This document shows, one piece after another, positions 48,103-57,649 of a stretch of 64,000 bases of DNA. Position 1 is the first letter of the stretch, and each line of letters opens with the position of its first letter. The DNA comes from Acidobacteria bacterium 13_1_20CM_3_53_8 (GTDB taxonomy: Bacteria > Acidobacteriota > Blastocatellia > Pyrinomonadales > Pyrinomonadaceae). Below the pieces are notes generated by a model. That model saw only the letters and a list, made by a program, of their open reading frames with translations, had not been told where the DNA came from and did not search any database. A program made the translations under genes and the position numbers. The DNA lies in NCBI GenBank assembly GCA_001920415.1, contig MNJR01000005.1, forward strand, positions 1 through 64,000. Reading direction: 5' to 3'.

Positions 48103-49143
48103 TCAAACTCCGGCAATCGCCGCGCCGTCCTTGATTGAAGCAGCGCTCATACGGCGAAAAGCGTTGATCTCGTCTGCAACTCGGTCGGGTGTGAGAGTCG
48201 AGATAGAGAGAACGCCCGCTTGATCCACGAACTTGAAGGCTGACGCTAATTCGCTAGCGTCCAGCGTCCACAGCCCCTGATTGTTCTTCTCCAACTGGTT
48301 AAGACGCGCGACCAGCCCGGAAAAATCCTGACGCACGATGCGCGGGCGCACAATTGTTTCAGCCCAGGAGTAATAAGGATAGTCAACTCTGAAAGTCCAC
48401 CCGCCGCCGATTGGCACTGCTATGAGATAAAGATGGCCGCGCGCGTAGTGTGAAATGGCAGTGTAAGGCGCGGCGTGTCTAGTTGGATTAAAACCCGACG
48501 GGCTGAAGATTTCCGGCGCGAGCGTGACGATGGATAAAGAAGTGACAGCGTGCTCTTCAACATTCGATGCGCCGCGCGCGAAACTTTCCAGCGCGGAAGC
48601 TATACGCTCCCAAGATTTGCGCCATAACTCTTCGTAATCACTGGTGCGAGTCAACACGCGCTCGACTTCCGGCAGAATAAGCTCGTAAGCGCGAGCGTCG
48701 TCCAACACACTCGTGCCCGCTAACGTACGAGCCAGAGGCGAGCCAGCTTCCTCTTGATCGCCAACCGCATCCGACCCTTGAATGACAATGCTTGCGCGCA
48801 CGCCGTCTTCGTTTGAGAACTCCGAAAAATCTCCTGCTTCGGCGGCGGCGATTAACTTCTCGCGCAAACGAGTGGCTCGCTCGCCAGTGAGCACAGTCCA
48901 GACGGAGAGCACGCCGTCAGTGTCGAAATGGTTGTTGGTGACAAGCTCTATGCCTTTGGTCAACTCCTCGCGGTCGGGCGCTGCGACCAGATTCAAAGCA
49001 ATCTCGGTCGAAGTGTCCGCTTTAACTTCCGGTGGCGTATGATTCCCCTGCCAGTGCGAGAAGTGGATGCTGTTCTCAACCGTGCCATCAACCGAAAGCT
49101 TCGGCACATCTTTCAATCCGGCGTGGTAATACTCAAATCTCAT
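48103..49143 (-). CDS. DUF6687-family protein
   Basis: A 346-residue protein matching the DUF6687 pattern: FEYYHAGLKDVPKLSVDGTV, IHFSHWQGNHTPPEVKADTS, ELVTNNHFDTDGVLSVWTVL, LSIVTLAPEIFSPSGFNPTR, RVDYPYYSWAETIVRPRIVR. It has conserved His/Asp in SHWQGN and NNHFDTDG that could form a metal or catalytic site. The family has no known function. The lack of a signal peptide predicts a cytosolic protein. It is isolated from neighbours by repeat-filled gaps on both sides. Confidence 0.75.
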   Translation of the reverse strand: MRFEYYHAGLKDVPKLSVDGTVENSIHFSHWQGNHTPPEVKADTSTEIALNLVAAPDREELTKGIELVTNNHFDTDGVLSVWTVLTGERATRLREKLIAAAEAGDFSEFSNEDGVRASIVIQGSDAVGDQEEAGSPLARTLAGTSVLDDARAYELILPEVERVLTRTSDYEELWRKSWERIASALESFARGASNVEEHAVTSLSIVTLAPEIFSPSGFNPTRHAAPYTAISHYARGHLYLIAVPIGGGWTFRVDYPYYSWAETIVRPRIVRQDFSGLVARLNQLEKNNQGLWTLDASELASAFKFVDQAGVLSISTLTPDRVADEINAFRRMSAASIKDGAAIAGV

Positions 49144-49228
49144 CTTTACACCTGCTGATACTTGTGAATGTTGAAATCACATGGAAAATTAACACCGTCG
49201 CGGCCTTTGAAGCAAAGAAGCAGCATAA

Positions 49229-49343
49229 GAAGGCAAAAGTAAAAAGGTAAAAGGCAAAAGTGAAGACACGCCTTACAGACGTGAATTAGAGATTAAAAAT
49301 GATTGCTTCTTCACTTTTTACTTTTACCTTTTTACTTTTACCT
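49229..49343. repeat. Palindromic repeat, 'aaggcaaaagtaaaaagg' word type
   Basis: The left arm (49229-49262) is aaggcaaaagtaaaaaggta and onward. The right arm (49308-49343) is ttcttcactttttactttta and onward. It is the same class as the copy at 9841. Confidence 0.85.
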
Positions 49344-49360
49344 TCGTTGATAAGGGGGGA

Positions 49361-49396
49361 GGCGGCGGAGGGTGCGTGAGTCCCCCGCCGCTTTTC
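49361..49396. terminator. GC-rich hairpin with T-tract
   Basis: GGCGGCGGAGGG pairs with CCCCCGCCGC across a 9-nt loop, followed by TTTTCC. It could terminate transcription from either side. Confidence 0.5.
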
Positions 49397-49402
49397 CACA
49401 GT

Positions 49403-50117
49403 ACCGTGACGGTCTAGCGGTTATGCTTGTGCTTCAACCGTCAGGCGTGGGGCGAGTTACTTTAATGCTGTATGCATGAGGTCGGCTTCGCCGGTATCAC
49501 TTTCGGCACACCATCTATGGTTTTTGCAATTGCAGCTTTTATCAAGTTTTTCGCTTGAACTGCCCTTGCTGAAACTCCGATTAGATAAAGGGAAATAACT
49601 TTATCTATATTTATATGCGAATTGCCCTGAAAACATTTCGTCATAATCAAATCAGGTGTGGACTAATCGTTACCAACGGGCAAGGGTGATGATGAGCAAA
49701 GGCAGTGTTGTATGGTGAAAAGAAGGCTTATTGTTATATTTTATCGGAAAAAATTGCGGAAGAATCCTGCGGCCAGCGGGTTTTGCAAACATTATGCATA
49801 GACACTTATCTACAATTCCATATGCCGGTTAAAGTTCTGTTGACAGTATCAATCAATCAAGTTTACTCTCCGTTTGATCTGTTCATTCGGATCAATCTTC
49901 AAGAGGGTTTTATACAAGACGCGCGACTCCGTGTAGATTACTCGATTGGCTCTCATTAAGTAACGCGAGCCTTCAAAGAGTCGCCTCTCTCGCCTCTTCT
50001 TCTAAAAAGGCTATTCGTAATACAGCCCTACTCCGACAGGGTTAGGTTCATAAGCGACGGAAGTCCGGCAACTTTGTCTATAGCCGTAAAAACCGGCTCT
50101 ACCCCGATTGAGACTCG
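49403..50117. other. Long intergenic region, no confident gene
   Basis: About 700 bp before the ECF sigma factor, partly AT-rich. Two short frames (49462-49650 minus, 49705-49959 plus) lack family resemblance or ribosome sites. The minus frame has a faint IS256-transposase-like stretch (KVISLYLIGVSARAVQ), so it might be a decayed insertion sequence. The promoter of the sigma/CHAT locus must lie in the last 150 bp. Confidence 0.45.
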
Positions 50118-50699
50118 ATGAGAAAAGAGCGAGTCATGACCGAAGAAGAGTTCAACGCATTACTTGATTGGCTAGACCCGGATCGCGATCAGGCCGGGGA
50201 GAAGTATGAAATCATTCGCCGCCGCCTCATCAGAATCTTTATTAGCCGGGGCTGTAATGACGCCGAAGAGATAGCCGACGAAACTATCAACCGCGTGATG
50301 CTCAGGCTGCCGGAGATAAGGGAGAGCTACGTTGGCGACCCTGCGCTCTATTTTTATGGCGTAGCTCATAAGGTCTATCTGGAATACAGAAGAAAGCCTG
50401 TCCCGTCAGTAATTCAACGGGAAATACCAGATCACTCTACTTCGTTCATTGATTTCGATGAAACCGAGCGGAGGCATGAGTGTCTGGGCAAATGTATGTT
50501 GCAATTACCTAAAGATCAGCGTGAAATGATGCTGCAATATTACGCTGACGATAAGCGAGCCAAGATAGATCATCGGAAAGAGTTGGCCGAAAATCGGGGG
50601 ATTACCCTCAACGCGCTAAGGATTTGCGTATATCGTATAAGGTTAATGCTAGAGAAGTGCGTGCGGAATTGTCTTGAGCAGCAGATGGCCGAGAGATGA
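50118..50699 (+). CDS. ECF-like RNA polymerase sigma factor
   Basis: A 193-residue sigma-70-family protein. Region 2 is recognisable (YEIIRRRLIRIFISRGCNDA, EEIADETINRVMLRLPEIRE, DPALYFYGVAHKVYLEYRR), a linker with acidic residues follows, then region 4 (LPKDQREMMLQYYADD, ELAENRGITLNALRICVYRI, RLMLEKCVRNCLEQ), a helix-turn-helix. Start at 50118 or 50136 (MTEEEFNALLDWL). It is the first gene of the CHAT locus and 64 bp upstream of a protein whose N-terminus looks like an anti-sigma segment. Target promoters, perhaps including this locus, are unknown. Confidence 0.83.
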   Translation: MRKERVMTEEEFNALLDWLDPDRDQAGEKYEIIRRRLIRIFISRGCNDAEEIADETINRVMLRLPEIRESYVGDPALYFYGVAHKVYLEYRRKPVPSVIQREIPDHSTSFIDFDETERRHECLGKCMLQLPKDQREMMLQYYADDKRAKIDHRKELAENRGITLNALRICVYRIRLMLEKCVRNCLEQQMAER

Positions 50700-50763
50700 A
50701 ATAGATTTTTCCATAGAGCATATCAGTTAGAGGGATTTCCTCAATCAGAGAATATATCTAAGC

Positions 50764-53700
50764 ATGGCACTACAATCAGATGATCAGAGAGCAATCCGGC
50801 AGTATCTGCTGGGTGAGCTAAGCACCGAAGACCAGCGTCAGCAGGTCGAAGAACGACTCATTACCGACGGGGAATTTTTTCAGGAACTGGAAATTTCCGA
50901 ATACGAGTTGATTGATGAATACTTGAATAACGCGCTCACTCTGGACGAGCGAAGCCATTTTGAGAGCTATTTTTTATCTGCAACCGAGCGTCAGAGCAAG
51001 CTCAGTTTCTCCAGCGCACTGAAAACGTATGTCGCGCGTGCAAACGTAGAAGACGAAGACGAAACAGAAGAAGAAGAGCGCTCCTCACAAAGACAAAAAA
51101 ATTATCAGCCGCCACTCTGGACGCGCCTACTAGCCAGCCCTTACTTAAGAACCGCCGCAGCCTTTCCAGTCCTGATAGTGTTAGGACTTGGCATCTGGCG
51201 AGTCTTCTTCTATCAATCCGAGACGCAGAGAGGGTTGATTGCTCTTGAGAGAGCCTATCGTCAAGAGCGCCCCATAGAAGCGCGCACTTCCGTTCTGCCT
51301 TACGCGCCACTCCTAGAGACGCGAGGCGGCACGCAGGCGAAAGTTGATGAGACCTCGCGCCATCTGGCCGAGAGTCTATTGCTTGACGCTGTAAGGAGCG
51401 AGCCTGGCCCGGCATCTCGCCACGCGCTTGGGCTTCTCTATTTATCCGAAAAAAAGTTTGACGAGGCGATTCATGAATTTGAAGAGGCATTGAAGGCTGA
51501 CCCGCAAAACGCGCGGATTCATAGCGACATGGGAGCCGCGCTGTTAGAGCGTGAGATCGCTCGCGCGAATGTAGAAGGCGGTAGAAGCCTTGAAGAATTT
51601 GCCGAGAGCTGTGACCACTTGAGCAAGGCGCTGGAACTTGACCCCTCTCTTCTTGAAGCGCTATTTAACCGCGCTCTTTGTTACGAACGCAGCGGGCTGC
51701 CACCGCAGGCTGAAGATGACTGGCGCAAGTATCTTGAGAGAGACCCCAATTCTCCGTGGGCGGATGAGGCAAGGCAGCATCTTAGACGACTCGAACAGGA
51801 AAGAAGCAGCGCTTCGCAGAACGAAGAACAGATGCTTCAAGATTTTCTCGTAGCAAGTCAGACCAGAGATGATGACAGGGCGTGGCAGATCGTTAGCCAT
51901 AGCAATAGCTCTGCGGGAAATCTCATCACAAACAAAATTCTTGACTCCTATCTAGACCTGGAAGCGCAAGGCCAGCACGATGCTGCCAGAGGTAAGCTAC
52001 AGGCATTGGTTTACGCTGGACGGCTAACAGTCGAACGAACAGGAGACCGTTACACTTCCGACCTCGCAAAGTTTTACAACTCGGCATCAACAGCGCGCCT
52101 CTCGTCCCTAGCTCAAGCGCGCAGCCAGATCAATAAGGCATACGAGCTTTTCACGCAGTCCCGTTATGACGAGGCCATTGCTTCCTACACGGCGGCCAAA
52201 CAAATCTTCGATCAGGCAGGAGACACGAGCGAAGCAATCTTCGCGCGCTACCGAATAGGCCATTGCTACGTGCTCGAACCGGATACGGAGAGGAGTCAAC
52301 CGATTTTTGATGAGCTGACTTCAACCTGTAAGAACAGAGAATACAGGTGGCTGCTCGCACAGTGTCTCTATGAATCAGCCCAAATTCAAGCTGGCCTGAA
52401 CGAATATTCAAAAGCAATTGATTACAGTGCCCAGGCTCTGAAGCTATTAGAACAGATAGATGATACAGCCGGGATTGTGAAAAGCCTGGTTCAACTCGCT
52501 GACGAATATCGCTCACTGAACGACGTAAACAGATCAATGATATTTCTTCAACGAGGTCTGTTTTCCATAATCAATTGTCATCCTGAGCCAACGCAGAGCT
52601 GCTGGGAGCTTTATTTTGCAATTGCGCTGGATTTCAATTTACTCAGACGTTATACGACGGCGCTGGAATATCAGAAAGAGGCATTACAATTAGCTCTTGC
52701 TTTGAACAAACCTTTGCTAATATCTCGCTCTTACGGGTATCTAGGATCATTCTACGGAAGCTTGAAAAATTATGACGAGGCGATAAGAAATATCGAGTTG
52801 GCTTTAGATATAGCAAAGAGCTTGTCGGGTCAGCCTAGCGGGCTGGATATGATGGGCAACACTTCCCTTCAACTGGGAGAAATTTACAGGCAGACAGGGG
52901 ATTACAGTAAAGCTCTTGACGCCTATAATCAGAGCATCAATTATTATGATGGACTGAATTTTAAATATTTTTTCTATGCGGCGCACAAGGGGAAACTTCT
53001 CTGTTATAAAGCTCTGGGTGATGGCGCGGCGACCGAAGAAGAGATAAAGACTGTGCTGCCTCTCTTCGATCAATATCGCTCGAAGATTACCGACGAGAGT
53101 CAACGAAACAGCTTCTTTGATGCCGAGCAGAGCATCTACGATCTTGCTATAGATTTCGCAGATTACGGAAAACAGAATTCTCAGCTTGCATTTGAATATT
53201 CGGAAGAATCTCGCGCCCGCTCGCTTTTGGACATCATGCGACAGGGCACTCATGTGGTCGGGCAGGAATTCGATCCAGAGCTTGGGCTTTCATCAGGTTC
53301 AAAGCCGCTCACACTCTCACAGCTACAAGAGCAAATGCCTGATCGTGTACAGATAATACAATACGCTGTGCTTGAGAACAGGCTTCTTATATGGGTAATC
53401 AGTAAGGGGAAGTTTCAATCTGCACAGCCCGTTGAAATCTCCGCTGAAGTTCTAAATGAAAAAATTCAAAAGTACCTGAGTTTAATAAAGAGCAGGAGCG
53501 AGTCTGGCAGTGAAGAGGCCAGACAGGTGTCTGGGGAATTGCACGACATTCTCATCAAGCCGGTTGAGAGTTTTTTCGATAGCAATGACGAAATGCTCTG
53601 CATAGTCCCCGATAAGATTCTAAACTACCTGCCTTTCAGCGCGCTTCTTTCTAAATCTTCCGGCAGGTATCTCGTACAGGATTATCCTTTACAACTATCG

Positions 53701-54408
53701 CCAAGCTCCAGCGTTTTTATTGAATGCTCCAACATAGCTGACAGCAAGGCCGGTGCAAGAGATGAGCGATTGCTCAGCGTCGGAAGCCCCAGCTTCAATC
53801 ATGCAAGCTTTCCCACACTCTCAGACCTGCCGGAAGCAAGCAGAGAGGCCAGAGCGATCACAACATTTTACAGGTCGTCACGTCTTCTGCTAGGAGCAGC
53901 CGCGCGCGTGCGAGAGATCAGGAGTGAGATTGAAACGTCGGATGTGCTCCACTTTGCCTTGCACTATGTAGTTAATGAGCGATCCGCAATGCTCTCAGAG
54001 ATGGTTCTGGCCGAAGAGCCGGGCGACCATGCCAGACACGAAACCAGTGACGGCAGTTTGCGCGCTTCCGAGATTTACGAAATGAAACCTATAGCTCGCC
54101 TTGTCATACTCTCTGCATGTCAGACGGGGATCGAGCGTCAGTACAGTGGCGAGGGTGCGATTGGACTTGCGCGACCCTTCATAGCCGCGCGCGTCCCCTT
54201 GGTCGTAGCAAGCCTCTGGCCTGTTGATTCAGGCTCTACGGCGGATTTGATGATAGCTTTTCACAAGCACCGCAAGCAGGATGGAGTGATAACAGCGAAA
54301 GCGCTTCAGCGCGCCCAGATGGAGATGCTTCAAGGCGAGGACGAGCATTATCGCCAGCCATACTACTGGGCATCTTTCTTTGCCATTGGCGGGCACACAG
54401 AATACTAG
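50764..54408 (+). CDS. Anti-sigma-like, membrane-anchored TPR-CHAT protease
   Basis: A 1214-residue protein. Residues 1-90 resemble a zinc-less anti-sigma module (IRQYLLGELSTEDQRQQVEE, RLITDGEFFQELEISEYELI, DEYLNNALTLDERSHFESYF). An acidic linker and one transmembrane helix (129-149, AAAFPVLIVLGLGIWRVFFY) follow. Then come TPRs to about residue 860 (LGLLYLSEKKFDEAIHEFEE; SRSYGYLGSFYGSLKNYDEA; FEYSEESRARSLLDIMRQGT) and a CHAT caspase-like domain (VQIIQYAVLENRLLIWVISK; LPFSALLSKSSGRYLVQDYP). The catalytic dyad is H1067 in LHFALHY and C1119 in ILSACQTG, with SGEGAIGLARPFIAARVPLV and SLWPVDSGST after it. Probably membrane-tethered, with signal-triggered proteolysis. The start lacks a clear ribosome site. 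Confidence 0.9.
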   Translation: MALQSDDQRAIRQYLLGELSTEDQRQQVEERLITDGEFFQELEISEYELIDEYLNNALTLDERSHFESYFLSATERQSKLSFSSALKTYVARANVEDEDETEEEERSSQRQKNYQPPLWTRLLASPYLRTAAAFPVLIVLGLGIWRVFFYQSETQRGLIALERAYRQERPIEARTSVLPYAPLLETRGGTQAKVDETSRHLAESLLLDAVRSEPGPASRHALGLLYLSEKKFDEAIHEFEEALKADPQNARIHSDMGAALLEREIARANVEGGRSLEEFAESCDHLSKALELDPSLLEALFNRALCYERSGLPPQAEDDWRKYLERDPNSPWADEARQHLRRLEQERSSASQNEEQMLQDFLVASQTRDDDRAWQIVSHSNSSAGNLITNKILDSYLDLEAQGQHDAARGKLQALVYAGRLTVERTGDRYTSDLAKFYNSASTARLSSLAQARSQINKAYELFTQSRYDEAIASYTAAKQIFDQAGDTSEAIFARYRIGHCYVLEPDTERSQPIFDELTSTCKNREYRWLLAQCLYESAQIQAGLNEYSKAIDYSAQALKLLEQIDDTAGIVKSLVQLADEYRSLNDVNRSMIFLQRGLFSIINCHPEPTQSCWELYFAIALDFNLLRRYTTALEYQKEALQLALALNKPLLISRSYGYLGSFYGSLKNYDEAIRNIELALDIAKSLSGQPSGLDMMGNTSLQLGEIYRQTGDYSKALDAYNQSINYYDGLNFKYFFYAAHKGKLLCYKALGDGAATEEEIKTVLPLFDQYRSKITDESQRNSFFDAEQSIYDLAIDFADYGKQNSQLAFEYSEESRARSLLDIMRQGTHVVGQEFDPELGLSSGSKPLTLSQLQEQMPDRVQIIQYAVLENRLLIWVISKGKFQSAQPVEISAEVLNEKIQKYLSLIKSRSESGSEEARQVSGELHDILIKPVESFFDSNDEMLCIVPDKILNYLPFSALLSKSSGRYLVQDYPLQLSPSSSVFIECSNIADSKAGARDERLLSVGSPSFNHASFPTLSDLPEASREARAITTFYRSSRLLLGAAARVREIRSEIETSDVLHFALHYVVNERSAMLSEMVLAEEPGDHARHETSDGSLRASEIYEMKPIARLVILSACQTGIERQYSGEGAIGLARPFIAARVPLVVASLWPVDSGSTADLMIAFHKHRKQDGVITAKALQRAQMEMLQGEDEHYRQPYYWASFFAIGGHTEY

Positions 54409-54503
54409 AGGATTAACCGCCGGTTGAAATTTACCTGAAATAAAATTCCGGTTCGAGACATATATAGATGAGATGACTTTCTAACAGATAAGGAGAAAAA
54501 CAA

Positions 54504-55421
54504 ATGCCTTTCGGAATAGCACAGAGCCTTCCAAAGTGGCCTTCAGTGAGAATCCTTTTTCATGGTCTTTTACTTTGGTACCCCGATAAGGATGGAACAT
54601 CCTGCCGCATCGGTGTCCTTCGCGGCGCGCCTGATCACTATCTATCAATTGAGGTCAGGATAAAGAAGCAAGGCGACCCGGACTTTCCTATCATGAGACA
54701 CTTTGCACCTATGCGCTTTAGCCACAATGATGATGACACCAGTCCAGGATTATTGATTACAGTAGATACTCCTTCAAAAGACCCACATGTGGAAGTGTTT
54801 ATTCCCGACCCGGATTTTGAAAGATCGCCGACTTCTACTTCAGACCCTCAGGACTATAGGTGGGGAGTTGACCTGGATGATATACACAAAGTTGAACTGC
54901 AACAAAATCCCAAGCTTCTGTTACGTGATTCGAACTCTACTGAACCCAGCATCCAAATAACCGAAGGTATCCTGCACACCGCGTTGAAATCGCATGATGA
55001 TATAGAGATCAAGAAGGTCAGCCTGAAGACCGGCAAGGAGGTGGATTTTTTCCCCATTGCCGCTATCATGGGCATCAATATGTATCTTGAGCCTACGCAG
55101 AATTTGATTTTGCGGTGGATTAAGGAAGATGGTCTTAGCCAAGAATTGCCACTGCCCAGGCCAGATAATCCCTTGGATAATCCCGGTCAACTCAGCTATG
55201 AGATTTATATAGATAACAATCCAACCTTCACTGATCATGTGACGCACAGTGATTTCACAGAGTTCTATAAGGCTTTTAAGGTTGGTTCTTTGCCCACTGA
55301 GCTATTCGATCTGAAGTTTCCAATAGCTCCGGGCGTAAGACATCTGATGAAGTTTGTAGATAGCGGTACTGATCTTGGCACGCCTACGATTCCCTGCATG
55401 CCCGGAGGGCATGGCGGATAG
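54504..55421 (+). CDS. Unknown 305-residue protein of the CHAT locus
   Basis: A 305-residue protein with a strong AAGGAGA ribosome site, no signal peptide and no membrane helix. It has a beta-rich N-terminus (PSVRILFHGLLLWYPDKDGT; CRIGVLRGAPDHYLSIEVRI), further strands (HVEVFIPDPDFERSP; YRWGVDLDDIHKVELQQN) and a C-terminal part with QLSYEIYIDNNPTFTDHVTH. It ends in PCMPGGHGG. No family was recognised. It lies 95 bp after the CHAT gene on the same strand. Its Gly/His-rich, Cys-containing tail and exposed loops make it a candidate substrate or partner of the protease. That is inference from position. Confidence 0.65.
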   Translation: MPFGIAQSLPKWPSVRILFHGLLLWYPDKDGTSCRIGVLRGAPDHYLSIEVRIKKQGDPDFPIMRHFAPMRFSHNDDDTSPGLLITVDTPSKDPHVEVFIPDPDFERSPTSTSDPQDYRWGVDLDDIHKVELQQNPKLLLRDSNSTEPSIQITEGILHTALKSHDDIEIKKVSLKTGKEVDFFPIAAIMGINMYLEPTQNLILRWIKEDGLSQELPLPRPDNPLDNPGQLSYEIYIDNNPTFTDHVTHSDFTEFYKAFKVGSLPTELFDLKFPIAPGVRHLMKFVDSGTDLGTPTIPCMPGGHGG

Positions 55422-55547
55422 ACTTGAAATAAGCTCCGGCAATATTTGCGCTACAGAGCAAGTGGTGTGCACCCGCCACTTGCTCTGTCAAACCGAGTGA
55501 ACCGAGTTAAACGATTGTGCTGGCAGTGCCGCATACCCCTCGCGGCA

Positions 55548-56462
55548 CTAGCGCAGGGGCATGAACCCCCAAAGAGAGCTAGCCAAATCCGGCGAGGCAT
55601 TATAAAAAGTGGTGGGGTGTTGCTTATCCCGCAGTAGCATGTCGCTATAGACTGTAAAACCCTTTCGCTCTATCTCTTTACCTACGAGGTATTCAATCTC
55701 GACCTCTCCTGTAACGACAGCCAACGGTTCCCCTTCAAGCTCGAAGGGAGCGCTGAAGTTAATCATGCTCAACAACTTTTCCGTATCGCAGCCCTCTAAC
55801 CGTGCGATTAGCGGCCCACGTCCTTTGAGATCAGCCCTGTGGTAAGAGATCAATGAGACATTATCGGCAGATATTGTCTTATATTCGTTTTGGTCAAACA
55901 GTTTGAGATCCATAGTCATATCTCTAAGAGAAAACGTGGAGGCAGAGATGAGCATTGGGTGTAGTACCGCTTGTGGCTCTACTGTCTTCCACTCGCCAGC
56001 ATGACATATTACACCTTGCTGAGTGAGAGTAAGTACCCCTGTGAAAGCAGATACCTTTGCATGAGTTGCCCCCTGAACATTAATTGCCTCCACAACATTT
56101 TTGAGTAATGTGTCCCCACTTTGTCCGAACCCTGTGAAACAGGAACAAAAAATCAGTTCATCAAGACCCTGATTTTTGAATCGCTCAAGTTCTGCCTTCC
56201 ACTCGCCTTTATTATTAGAACCGATATTGTTCGTATCCCCGTCGTCCATACCCGTAAAAATTTTCCCTCTAATTCCATGGCCGACCATCATTACACGTGT
56301 TGCTCCATGGCAGTTGAGCAAATTGGTGACAGCATCGGCAGTGTTGCTATGACCATGCGCTCCCGGAAAGGCTGTTTGCGCATCACCCAGCCCCGCGCTG
56401 TTGGTGGAATCAAATGTTACACACTGCGGCACATCTTTACCACAGATATTTGTTACCGGCAT
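55548..56462 (-). CDS. Caspase-fold candidate protein (DUF4347-like His/Cys dyad)
   Basis: A 304-residue protein on the opposite strand, convergent with the 305-residue gene. After an N-terminal Gly/His-rich stretch (FPGAHGHSNTADAVTNLLNC) come TRVMMVGHGIRGKIFTGMDD with the His in GHG (H62) and GLDELIFCSCFTGFGQSGDT with the Cys in SCFTG (C108), followed by VSAFTGVLTL. This order, hydrophobic strand-GHG then hydrophobic strand-SCxTG, is the catalytic plan of caspase-like/C14-clan and DUF4347 proteins. The C-terminal 140 residues are beta-rich and unknown. No signal peptide. A protease role is inferred from the dyad only. Confidence 0.65.
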   Translation of the reverse strand: MPVTNICGKDVPQCVTFDSTNSAGLGDAQTAFPGAHGHSNTADAVTNLLNCHGATRVMMVGHGIRGKIFTGMDDGDTNNIGSNNKGEWKAELERFKNQGLDELIFCSCFTGFGQSGDTLLKNVVEAINVQGATHAKVSAFTGVLTLTQQGVICHAGEWKTVEPQAVLHPMLISASTFSLRDMTMDLKLFDQNEYKTISADNVSLISYHRADLKGRGPLIARLEGCDTEKLLSMINFSAPFELEGEPLAVVTGEVEIEYLVGKEIERKGFTVYSDMLLRDKQHPTTFYNASPDLASSLWGFMPLR

Positions 56463-56780
56463 CTTTTAAGTCTCCTCTCTTGACTGCTATTAGTCATATC
56501 GTATTCATCTCCATAGAATAATCACAGCGAGTTTTAGTTGAATACAACGGAAATCACTCATCCATGCTCTGTAGAGCAGAGAATATAATACGGACGACTT
56601 CAATTACTATGAAAATTCGAAGCGAAACATTTCAAAGCGCGGGAGATTGTATCCTATTTGAAAGGTATACAGTCGCTTCGGACGATGAACTGCTTTGCGA
56701 CCCACACTTGTCTGCACTGTAGCCTGTGAATAGAATAAGCGTTGAAATTCATAAAAATTCGATTTTATGGAGGCGAGGCC
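56463..56780. other. Divergent promoter region, no gene seen
   Basis: About 318 bp between the divergent caspase-like and rhodanese genes, AT-rich. GGAGGCGAGG at 56769-56778 is the ribosome site of the rhodanese gene. No repeat of the palindrome class is present here, which is unusual for this window. Confidence 0.5.
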
Positions 56781-57122
56781 ATGTCACAACCGATAAACCA
56801 GATGCAGGAAATCACCGCGACAGAATTGAAGCAACGTTTAGACGAGGGCAATGACATACAGATCGTGGACGTGCGCGAACCTAACGAGTACGCATTCGCG
56901 CGCATTCCCGGCTCGATACACATTCCGCTCGGACAAGTCGTGAATCGCATGAACGAGATTGACCCCTCGCGCGAAACGGTTGTTCACTGCAAGATGGGCG
57001 GGCGCAGCGCACGCGCGATTGAAGCACTGAAGCGCGCAGGGTTTCAAGGAGAACTCGTCAATCTCAAGGGCGGCATCACCGCATGGTCGAACGAAGTTGA
57101 TCCAACCGTGCCGAAGTATTAG
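56781..57122 (+). CDS. Rhodanese-like sulfurtransferase
   Basis: The start is ATG at 56781 with GGAGGCGAGG upstream; 113 residues. One rhodanese domain: EITATELKQRLDEGNDIQIV, DVREPNEYAFARIPGSIHIP, LGQVVNRMNEIDPSRETVVH, CKMGGRSARAIEALKRAGFQ with catalytic Cys in HCKMGGRS, and LVNLKGGITAWSNEVDPTVP. It resembles single-domain rhodaneses fused or linked to MoeB/ThiF-type systems and may serve sulfur delivery. The neighbouring gene is unrelated by sequence. Confidence 0.92.
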   Translation: MSQPINQMQEITATELKQRLDEGNDIQIVDVREPNEYAFARIPGSIHIPLGQVVNRMNEIDPSRETVVHCKMGGRSARAIEALKRAGFQGELVNLKGGITAWSNEVDPTVPKY

Positions 57123-57160: not shown

Positions 57161-57649
57161 TTGCGCCTGACTATTAGCGAGGCTTTCTTAACTGAAATTG
57201 GCCGCATCGCCGTTTACCAAACTCATACAGAAGCGCAGATGAGCCTTTTTATCCAAGAGTTATTATATCTGGATGACGCAAAGGGCAATATTATTACGAG
57301 CGGGCTTCGGATTAATGAGCTGGTTACAACACTTGAAGCTTTGTTGACTAATGAGTTTGGGACGCAGCATCGTTATGTCATAAGATTCAAGAAATTTAGT
57401 AGTGCTCTGGATAAGCTTAGGAAGAAGAGAAATGAGATCGTGCATTCAATGTGGAGCTTCGGCTCCACTTTGAAAGCTAATTCTGCAACTCGATCTAAAA
57501 TCAAGAGAAGAGGGCGTGAGTTTGTATCTGTTACATTAGATGAAATGAAAGAATTATCAAAGAAGATGGAGCATCTTGAATGGGAGATTAGTGATATTCG
57601 CGTCCGAGTTTGTCATTATGAAGCTAGTGCTAGGCCAAGCCGCGTCTAG
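57161..57649 (+). CDS. HEPN-like helical protein (RNxxVH motif)
   Basis: The start is TTG at 57161 behind GGGAG; 162 residues. It is all-helical (FLTEIGRIAVYQTHTEAQMS, LRINELVTTLEALLTNEFG, FSSALDKLRKKRNEIVHSMW, VTLDEMKELSKKMEHLEWEI). The LRKKRNEIVHSMW segment fits the R-x4-H motif of HEPN ribonucleases and of related helical proteins with RNxxVHxxW. HEPN proteins are often toxins or defence RNases, but this short motif alone does not prove catalysis. It lies 38 bp after the rhodanese and may be co-transcribed. Confidence 0.6.
   Translation: MRLTISEAFLTEIGRIAVYQTHTEAQMSLFIQELLYLDDAKGNIITSGLRINELVTTLEALLTNEFGTQHRYVIRFKKFSSALDKLRKKRNEIVHSMWSFGSTLKANSATRSKIKRRGREFVSVTLDEMKELSKKMEHLEWEISDIRVRVCHYEASARPSRV

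Follow-up and report, generated by a model that had tools for sequence, protein, structure and literature searches.

In RseA/DegS-type and other transmembrane anti-sigma systems of ECF sigma factors, the anti-sigma protein crosses the membrane once with its N-terminus inside and carries its sensor part outside. In the SAVED-CHAT cascade of Steens et al. 2024, a CHAT protease reportedly acts upstream of further proteolysis. Protease-released ECF sigma factors exist in bacterial immunity, as is evident from two systems: the type III-E CASP/Craspase system, composed of Csx29 (a TPR-CHAT protein), Csx30, Csx31, and CASP-sigma, in which Csx29 and Csx30 bring an ECF sigma factor under CHAT control (PMC10028731), and the CalpL/CalpT/CalpS system, in which an anti-sigma/ECF sigma pair is controlled by a protease (PMC11417357). 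The VMAP, iSTAND, and GAP1 variable-peptidase conflict systems harbor trypsin- or caspase-type peptidases that are mutually exclusive in the effector position; they are NTPase-centred, and the words 'CHAT' and 'sigma factor' are absent from the main text of the paper describing them (PMC7159879).

The locus considered here lies in a window of 64,000 nucleotides, the whole stretch of DNA that was analysed. A sequence-only reading had placed four genes at 50118-56462, and an ORF check found all four there. The third encodes the window member of a protein family designated F305, and the fourth, convergent with the F305 gene, encodes an orphan protein designated P304. The features are as follows.

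50118..50699, + strand: divergent ECF-type sigma factor gene, 193 aa (NCBIfam matches; orthologue in genome G009)
50764..54408, + strand: anti-sigma-like/TM/TPR/CHAT protease gene, 1214 aa (Pfam CHAT and TPRs)
50764..51087, + strand: N-terminal anti-sigma-like domain, residues 1-108 (cassette N-terminus profile; weak zf-HC2 match in G009)
51127..51183, + strand: single predicted TM helix, residues 122-140, N-in (hydropathy; family charge bias)
53527..54390, + strand: CHAT peptidase domain, residues 922-1209 (Pfam; dyad conservation)
53962-53964 and 54118-54120, + strand: codons of H1067 and C1119, the CHAT dyad
54504..55421, + strand: F305 family gene, 305 aa (family built here, without database match)
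55395-55397, + strand: codon of the invariant F305 tail Cys298 (Cys near the C-terminus in 74/75 members)
55548..56462, - strand: P304 orphan gene, 304 aa (motif test and slot statistics)
56277-56279 and 56139-56141, - strand: codons of P304 H62 and C108, a clan-CD-like dyad motif

The sigma protein matches NCBIfam TIGR02989 (E 7e-10) and sigma70-ECF (E 5e-7) below the curated cut-offs, as it does for all sigma-70 models of Pfam and NCBIfam, and is therefore regarded as a divergent ECF factor; its orthologue in G009 is 47% identical and occupies the equivalent position. The CHAT domain of the second protein is recognised far above the curated cut-off (Pfam PF12770, E 2e-62, 211.7 bits against a cut-off of 24) and follows many Pfam-detected TPRs. 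The dyad claimed from the letters alone, H1067/C1119, is kept in 47/47 cassettes, which bears the assignment out. The fused anti-sigma/TPR/CHAT architecture is present in many cassettes, and a profile of the cassette N-terminus also matches free-standing transmembrane anti-sigma-like proteins encoded directly after the same sigma family.

The cassette shares with CASP/Craspase the joint encoding of an ECF sigma factor, a TPR-CHAT protease, and an anti-sigma function (PMC10028731). In CASP/Craspase, however, the anti-sigma is a separate substrate, whereas here an anti-sigma-like domain is joined in cis to a membrane-anchored TPR-CHAT protein; activation there depends on Cas7-11 and target RNA, whereas no cas gene is seen beside the cassette, and no Cas7-11/CRISPR locus was found beside the TPR-CHAT gene. 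As in CalpL/T/S and the SAVED-CHAT cascade, a protease would control an anti-sigma/ECF sigma pair or a CHAT protease would stand upstream of further proteolysis, but those systems sense cyclic oligoadenylate through SAVED and have neither the TM-TPR-CHAT fusion nor F305. The anti-sigma layout recalls the RseA/DegS type in being N-in with a single transmembrane segment and an outside part, with the difference that the sensor part is itself a CHAT protease and that F305 and an exchangeable peptidase are added. With the variable-peptidase conflict systems it shares one effector position filled by alternative peptidase types, although those systems are built around an NTPase. Membership in CASP/Craspase or CalpL/T/S fails on the defining features; the cassette represents a variant of the protease-controlled sigma systems in which one protease slot is exchangeable. 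No account of it was found in the open-licence papers searched, and it is apparently undescribed so far.

Scans of the window for Rfam families and tRNAs returned nothing, no CRISPR-like array was found among the repeats at 49100-57000, and no notable repeat or terminator structure was found at the locus. A DUF6687 gene (48106-49143, - strand; Pfam PF20392, E 1.5e-51) lies upstream of the sigma gene, and nothing was found that ties it to the cassette. At 57161-57649 (+ strand), a 162-aa protein shows weak similarity to HEPN models: CARF_HEPN of PADLOC at E 1e-4 and RiboL-PSP-HEPN at E 0.001, the latter below cut-off. The genome of the window carries RAMP-family genes on contigs C25 (58963-65755) and C107 (1327-6947) and none on the window contig, C100; these genes probably belong to type III CRISPR systems.

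Single-sequence searches with the window F305 returned one real relative, in G009, where the gene order is that of the window: sigma (193 aa), fused TPR-CHAT (1222 aa), and a 276-aa F305 relative. The impression from these searches that F305 is nearly unique was overturned by a two-row profile, with which 21/162 genomes of the class were positive; a 22-row profile raised this to 39/162 genomes, in 28 of 53 genera. Among 396 evenly sampled genomes of the phylum, 12 were F305-positive, all within the class of the window. A weak match in G311 (L003/L008) was rejected as a chance overlap with a sulfatase-like gene region. Genes around the matches were called by a simple ORF script and not by a trained gene finder, so some gene starts are approximate.

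After removal of duplicates, the 39 class genomes yielded 75 F305 copies. A CHAT gene lies within five genes upstream on the same strand for 53 of the 75, and 47 of these 53 also have the sigma gene; for 12 copies a contig end is too near to judge the linkage. For the remaining 10 copies, 4.5 kb of sequence is available upstream but contains no CHAT gene; two family f7 genomes account for all of them except one in G051 and one that is an additional copy next to a cassette. Conversely, 40 full-length anti-sigma-TPR-CHAT genes have sufficient sequence downstream, and 39 of them have F305 as the next gene; this count, made by hand, includes G434, recovered on inspection, and derives from an N-terminal anti-sigma-TPR query whose alignment was biased in coming from F305-bearing cassettes. 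The single exception is in G460. Of the loci selected solely on their sigma gene, four encode the fused protein (L013, L023, L024, L026), and each of these has F305. Median spacings in the cassettes are 51, 64, and 27 bp, and such tight spacing suggests operons. The sigma, anti-sigma-TM-TPR-CHAT, and F305 genes are a conserved unit shared by soil bacteria of one Acidobacteriota class, and their linkage recurs across that class more than chance would give. The sequence-only reading is thereby supported in part: a sigma module linked to a protease, together with its own partner protein and a further protease, is a real genetic unit that recurs, and the absence of recurrent linkage, which that reading named as refuting, is not what the genomes show.

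A run of T9 breaks the anti-sigma-TPR-CHAT ORF at an identical place in four loci, between EFFF and SELADFY, where a -1 shift is needed: L075:13199-13235 (-), L103:5208-5358 (+), L105:4994-5039 (+), and L101:5690-5705 (+). These loci belong to a subclade with a TM-anchored trypsin-like protease; L077 has T10 at that position and an open frame. Programmed slippage or phase variation could explain the break, in which case both CHAT-containing and CHAT-less products would be made; an assembly error is the alternative.

Topology was judged by simple hydropathy and charge counts. Net positive charge is higher before the transmembrane segment than after it in 37/43 TPR-CHAT proteins and the reverse holds in 2 (family net charge +2.2 on the N side against 0 on the C side). 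Free-standing CHAT proteins beside the same sigma family often start, on inspection, with signal-peptide-like stretches. In the first 31 F305 members inspected, a signal peptide is lacking in all but one clear case, the lipoprotein-like N-terminus of L023. An N-terminal hydrophobic segment is absent from the effectors of types S8, C14, and C39; in the TM-anchored S1 group, the flanks after the transmembrane segment are strongly positive; L061 alone among the slot peptidases has a signal-like N-terminus. The CHAT domain is accordingly placed by prediction outside the membrane, with F305 and most effector peptidases inside.

This arrangement bears on the suggestion that F305 is a CHAT substrate, which the sequence-only reading raised beside that of a partner. 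The activated CHAT domain would clip the disordered Cys-bearing tail of F305, and the cleaved protein would trigger the second protease or act itself. The invariant Cys in that tail, the adjacency of the F305 and CHAT genes, and the Csx29-Csx30 precedent (PMC10028731) speak for it, but direct cleavage is disfavoured because the two proteins are predicted on opposite sides of the membrane, given the charge bias of 37 against 2 and the general lack of F305 signal peptides. The genomes of family f7 also count against it. They have up to 8-11 F305-like genes each (L118, L121-L123, L132, and L137 in G346; L116-L120, L126, L127, and L139 in G402), and there F305 typically lies convergent to a TPR protein that lacks CHAT, so that CHAT is not strictly required by F305; a zinc-finger anti-sigma-like domain stands at the N-terminus of several of these TPR proteins. 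The tail Cys is retained, the f7 tails terminating in C-x4-FG-x-S-x-(I/L). Cleavage of F305 by CHAT is doubtful and on balance unlikely.

The F305 family diverges fast (about 20-30% identity). The only invariant columns of the 22-row alignment are G21, H45, Y255, and C298, and a Cys occurs within the last 45 residues in 74 of the 75 members, mostly 7-16 residues from the end; the sole member without it, L130, has a stop inside the match. Some cassettes have two F305 copies (L067:6479-9630, L078:9261-12603, L065:208-2140, L113:1318-3077), with a peptidase gene between the copies in L067 and L078. The window F305 has no match in Pfam, NCBIfam, PADLOC, or PHROGs, and the 22 members have no credible match to Pfam, NCBIfam, or PADLOC models or to PDB sequences. 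The structural model of the window protein is beta-rich with a disordered C-terminal tail and of middling quality (pLDDT 58.8); Foldseek and VIA-align searches with this weak model found nothing.

Bacterial gasdermin operons place varied proteases beside a protein with a short conserved tail. By analogy, the second protease might cut the F305 C-terminal tail, after which F305 would damage membranes. F305, at 260-350 aa, likewise combines a short conserved tail with a changing set of neighbouring proteases, and its model is beta-rich, but neither the sequence searches with the 22 members nor the structure searches, limited by the weak model, returned a match, and this reading is the least probable of those considered.

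Of the 51 cassette copies for which 1 kb or more of downstream sequence is available, 25 have a peptidase gene next to F305; L073 has one too but stands outside this count on account of an overlapping ORF. By Pfam, the slot types are trypsin-like S1 (including weak S64 and Nal1_C matches), subtilisin S8, caspase C14, and papain-like C39/C70. The S8 gene of L133 runs convergently towards F305, as the P304 gene does in the window. In about half of the cassettes no recognised peptidase adjoins F305. Such peptidases account for 25/87 downstream genes against 4/529 background genes (Fisher p = 3e-19). The contrast is large, although there is some circularity in the test: the background genes were drawn from these loci too, and it was the downstream genes that served to define the peptidase classes. 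The CHAT tree requires 16 changes of peptidase label, compared with 23 in shuffled data; on supported branches alone, no fewer than four changes are forced for S8 and no fewer than two each for S1 and C14. The peptidase family in the slot is exchanged between lineages, repeatedly.

An ordinary envelope-stress sigma regulon, with the neighbouring proteases as housekeeping quality-control enzymes, would agree with the common stress design of an ECF sigma factor and a membrane anti-sigma, and with the lack of a defence family match. It does not readily account for repeated replacement by catalytically unrelated, mostly signal-less proteases or for the rapid divergence of F305; effector turnover fits these two observations better than quality control, and the regulon is improbable, though less so than gasdermin-like execution.

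In the window, the probable occupant of the slot is P304, which has no family match in Pfam, NCBIfam, or PADLOC, chance-level matches only in PHROGs (E 0.2), and no credible homologue in the phylum, the class, plasmids, or viral contigs. The GHG (H62) and SCxTG (C108, as SCFTG) motifs reported earlier are present. A pattern of a hydrophobic strand-(G)HG and a hydrophobic strand-SCxxG at caspase spacing matches 4 of 890 local genes, namely P304 and three C14 caspases occupying the same slot; because the pattern was written after seeing P304, this support for a caspase-like protein is at the motif level only. An AlphaFold2 single-sequence model has a mean pLDDT of 35, fold searches with it were uninformative, and neither CHAT nor the C14 protein of L062 aligned significantly with P304 in hhalign. 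Of the earlier proposal of a second caspase-fold protein, the dyad shared with the C14 slot-mates holds and the fold is unconfirmed; P304 is probably a clan CD peptidase.

The reading tentatively preferred, somewhat short of probable, is a modular membrane-signalling cassette in which a sigma switch gated by CHAT is coupled to a cytosolic protease that can be interchanged. The cytosolic N-terminal anti-sigma domain of the TPR-CHAT protein would hold the sigma factor; the TPR array outside the membrane would sense a ligand and switch on the CHAT protease, which would cleave itself in cis or start regulated cleavage of the anchor and so free the sigma factor. In the cytosol, F305 may be devoted to the second protease as its adaptor, inhibitor, or substrate, the Cys-bearing C-terminal tail of F305 being a docking or processing site, and the effector would be the exchangeable second protease (S1, S8, C14, C39/C70, or, in the window, P304, probably of clan CD). 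Against this reading stand the roughly half of the cassettes in which no peptidase is recognised beside F305, the f7 pairing of F305 with a TPR protein devoid of CHAT, and the orphan status and unconfirmed fold of P304. Tested upstream of 41 sigma genes, a two-block ECF promoter motif showed no convincing excess over shuffles, so self-regulation of the cassette is unproven. It is possible, with less confidence, that the cassette is an undescribed immunity or cell-death chassis: unrelated proteases (S1, S8, C14, C39/C70, P304) would be plugged into the trans-envelope CHAT-gated sigma switch and F305, each acting as an exchangeable executioner in the cytosol, and the invariant tail Cys of F305 would couple them all.

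In CRISPR-linked systems, CHAT proteases are established executioners; here one is apparently hard-wired to its own anti-sigma domain, next to a partner family that none of the searched libraries contains and an effector slot in which unrelated proteases have repeatedly replaced one another. The cassette looks like a modular alarm or self-destruct device. If confirmed, it would represent a bacterial protease cascade under transcriptional control, built from interchangeable parts, and would provide many natural CHAT/partner pairs with which to probe what CHAT proteases sense and what they cut.
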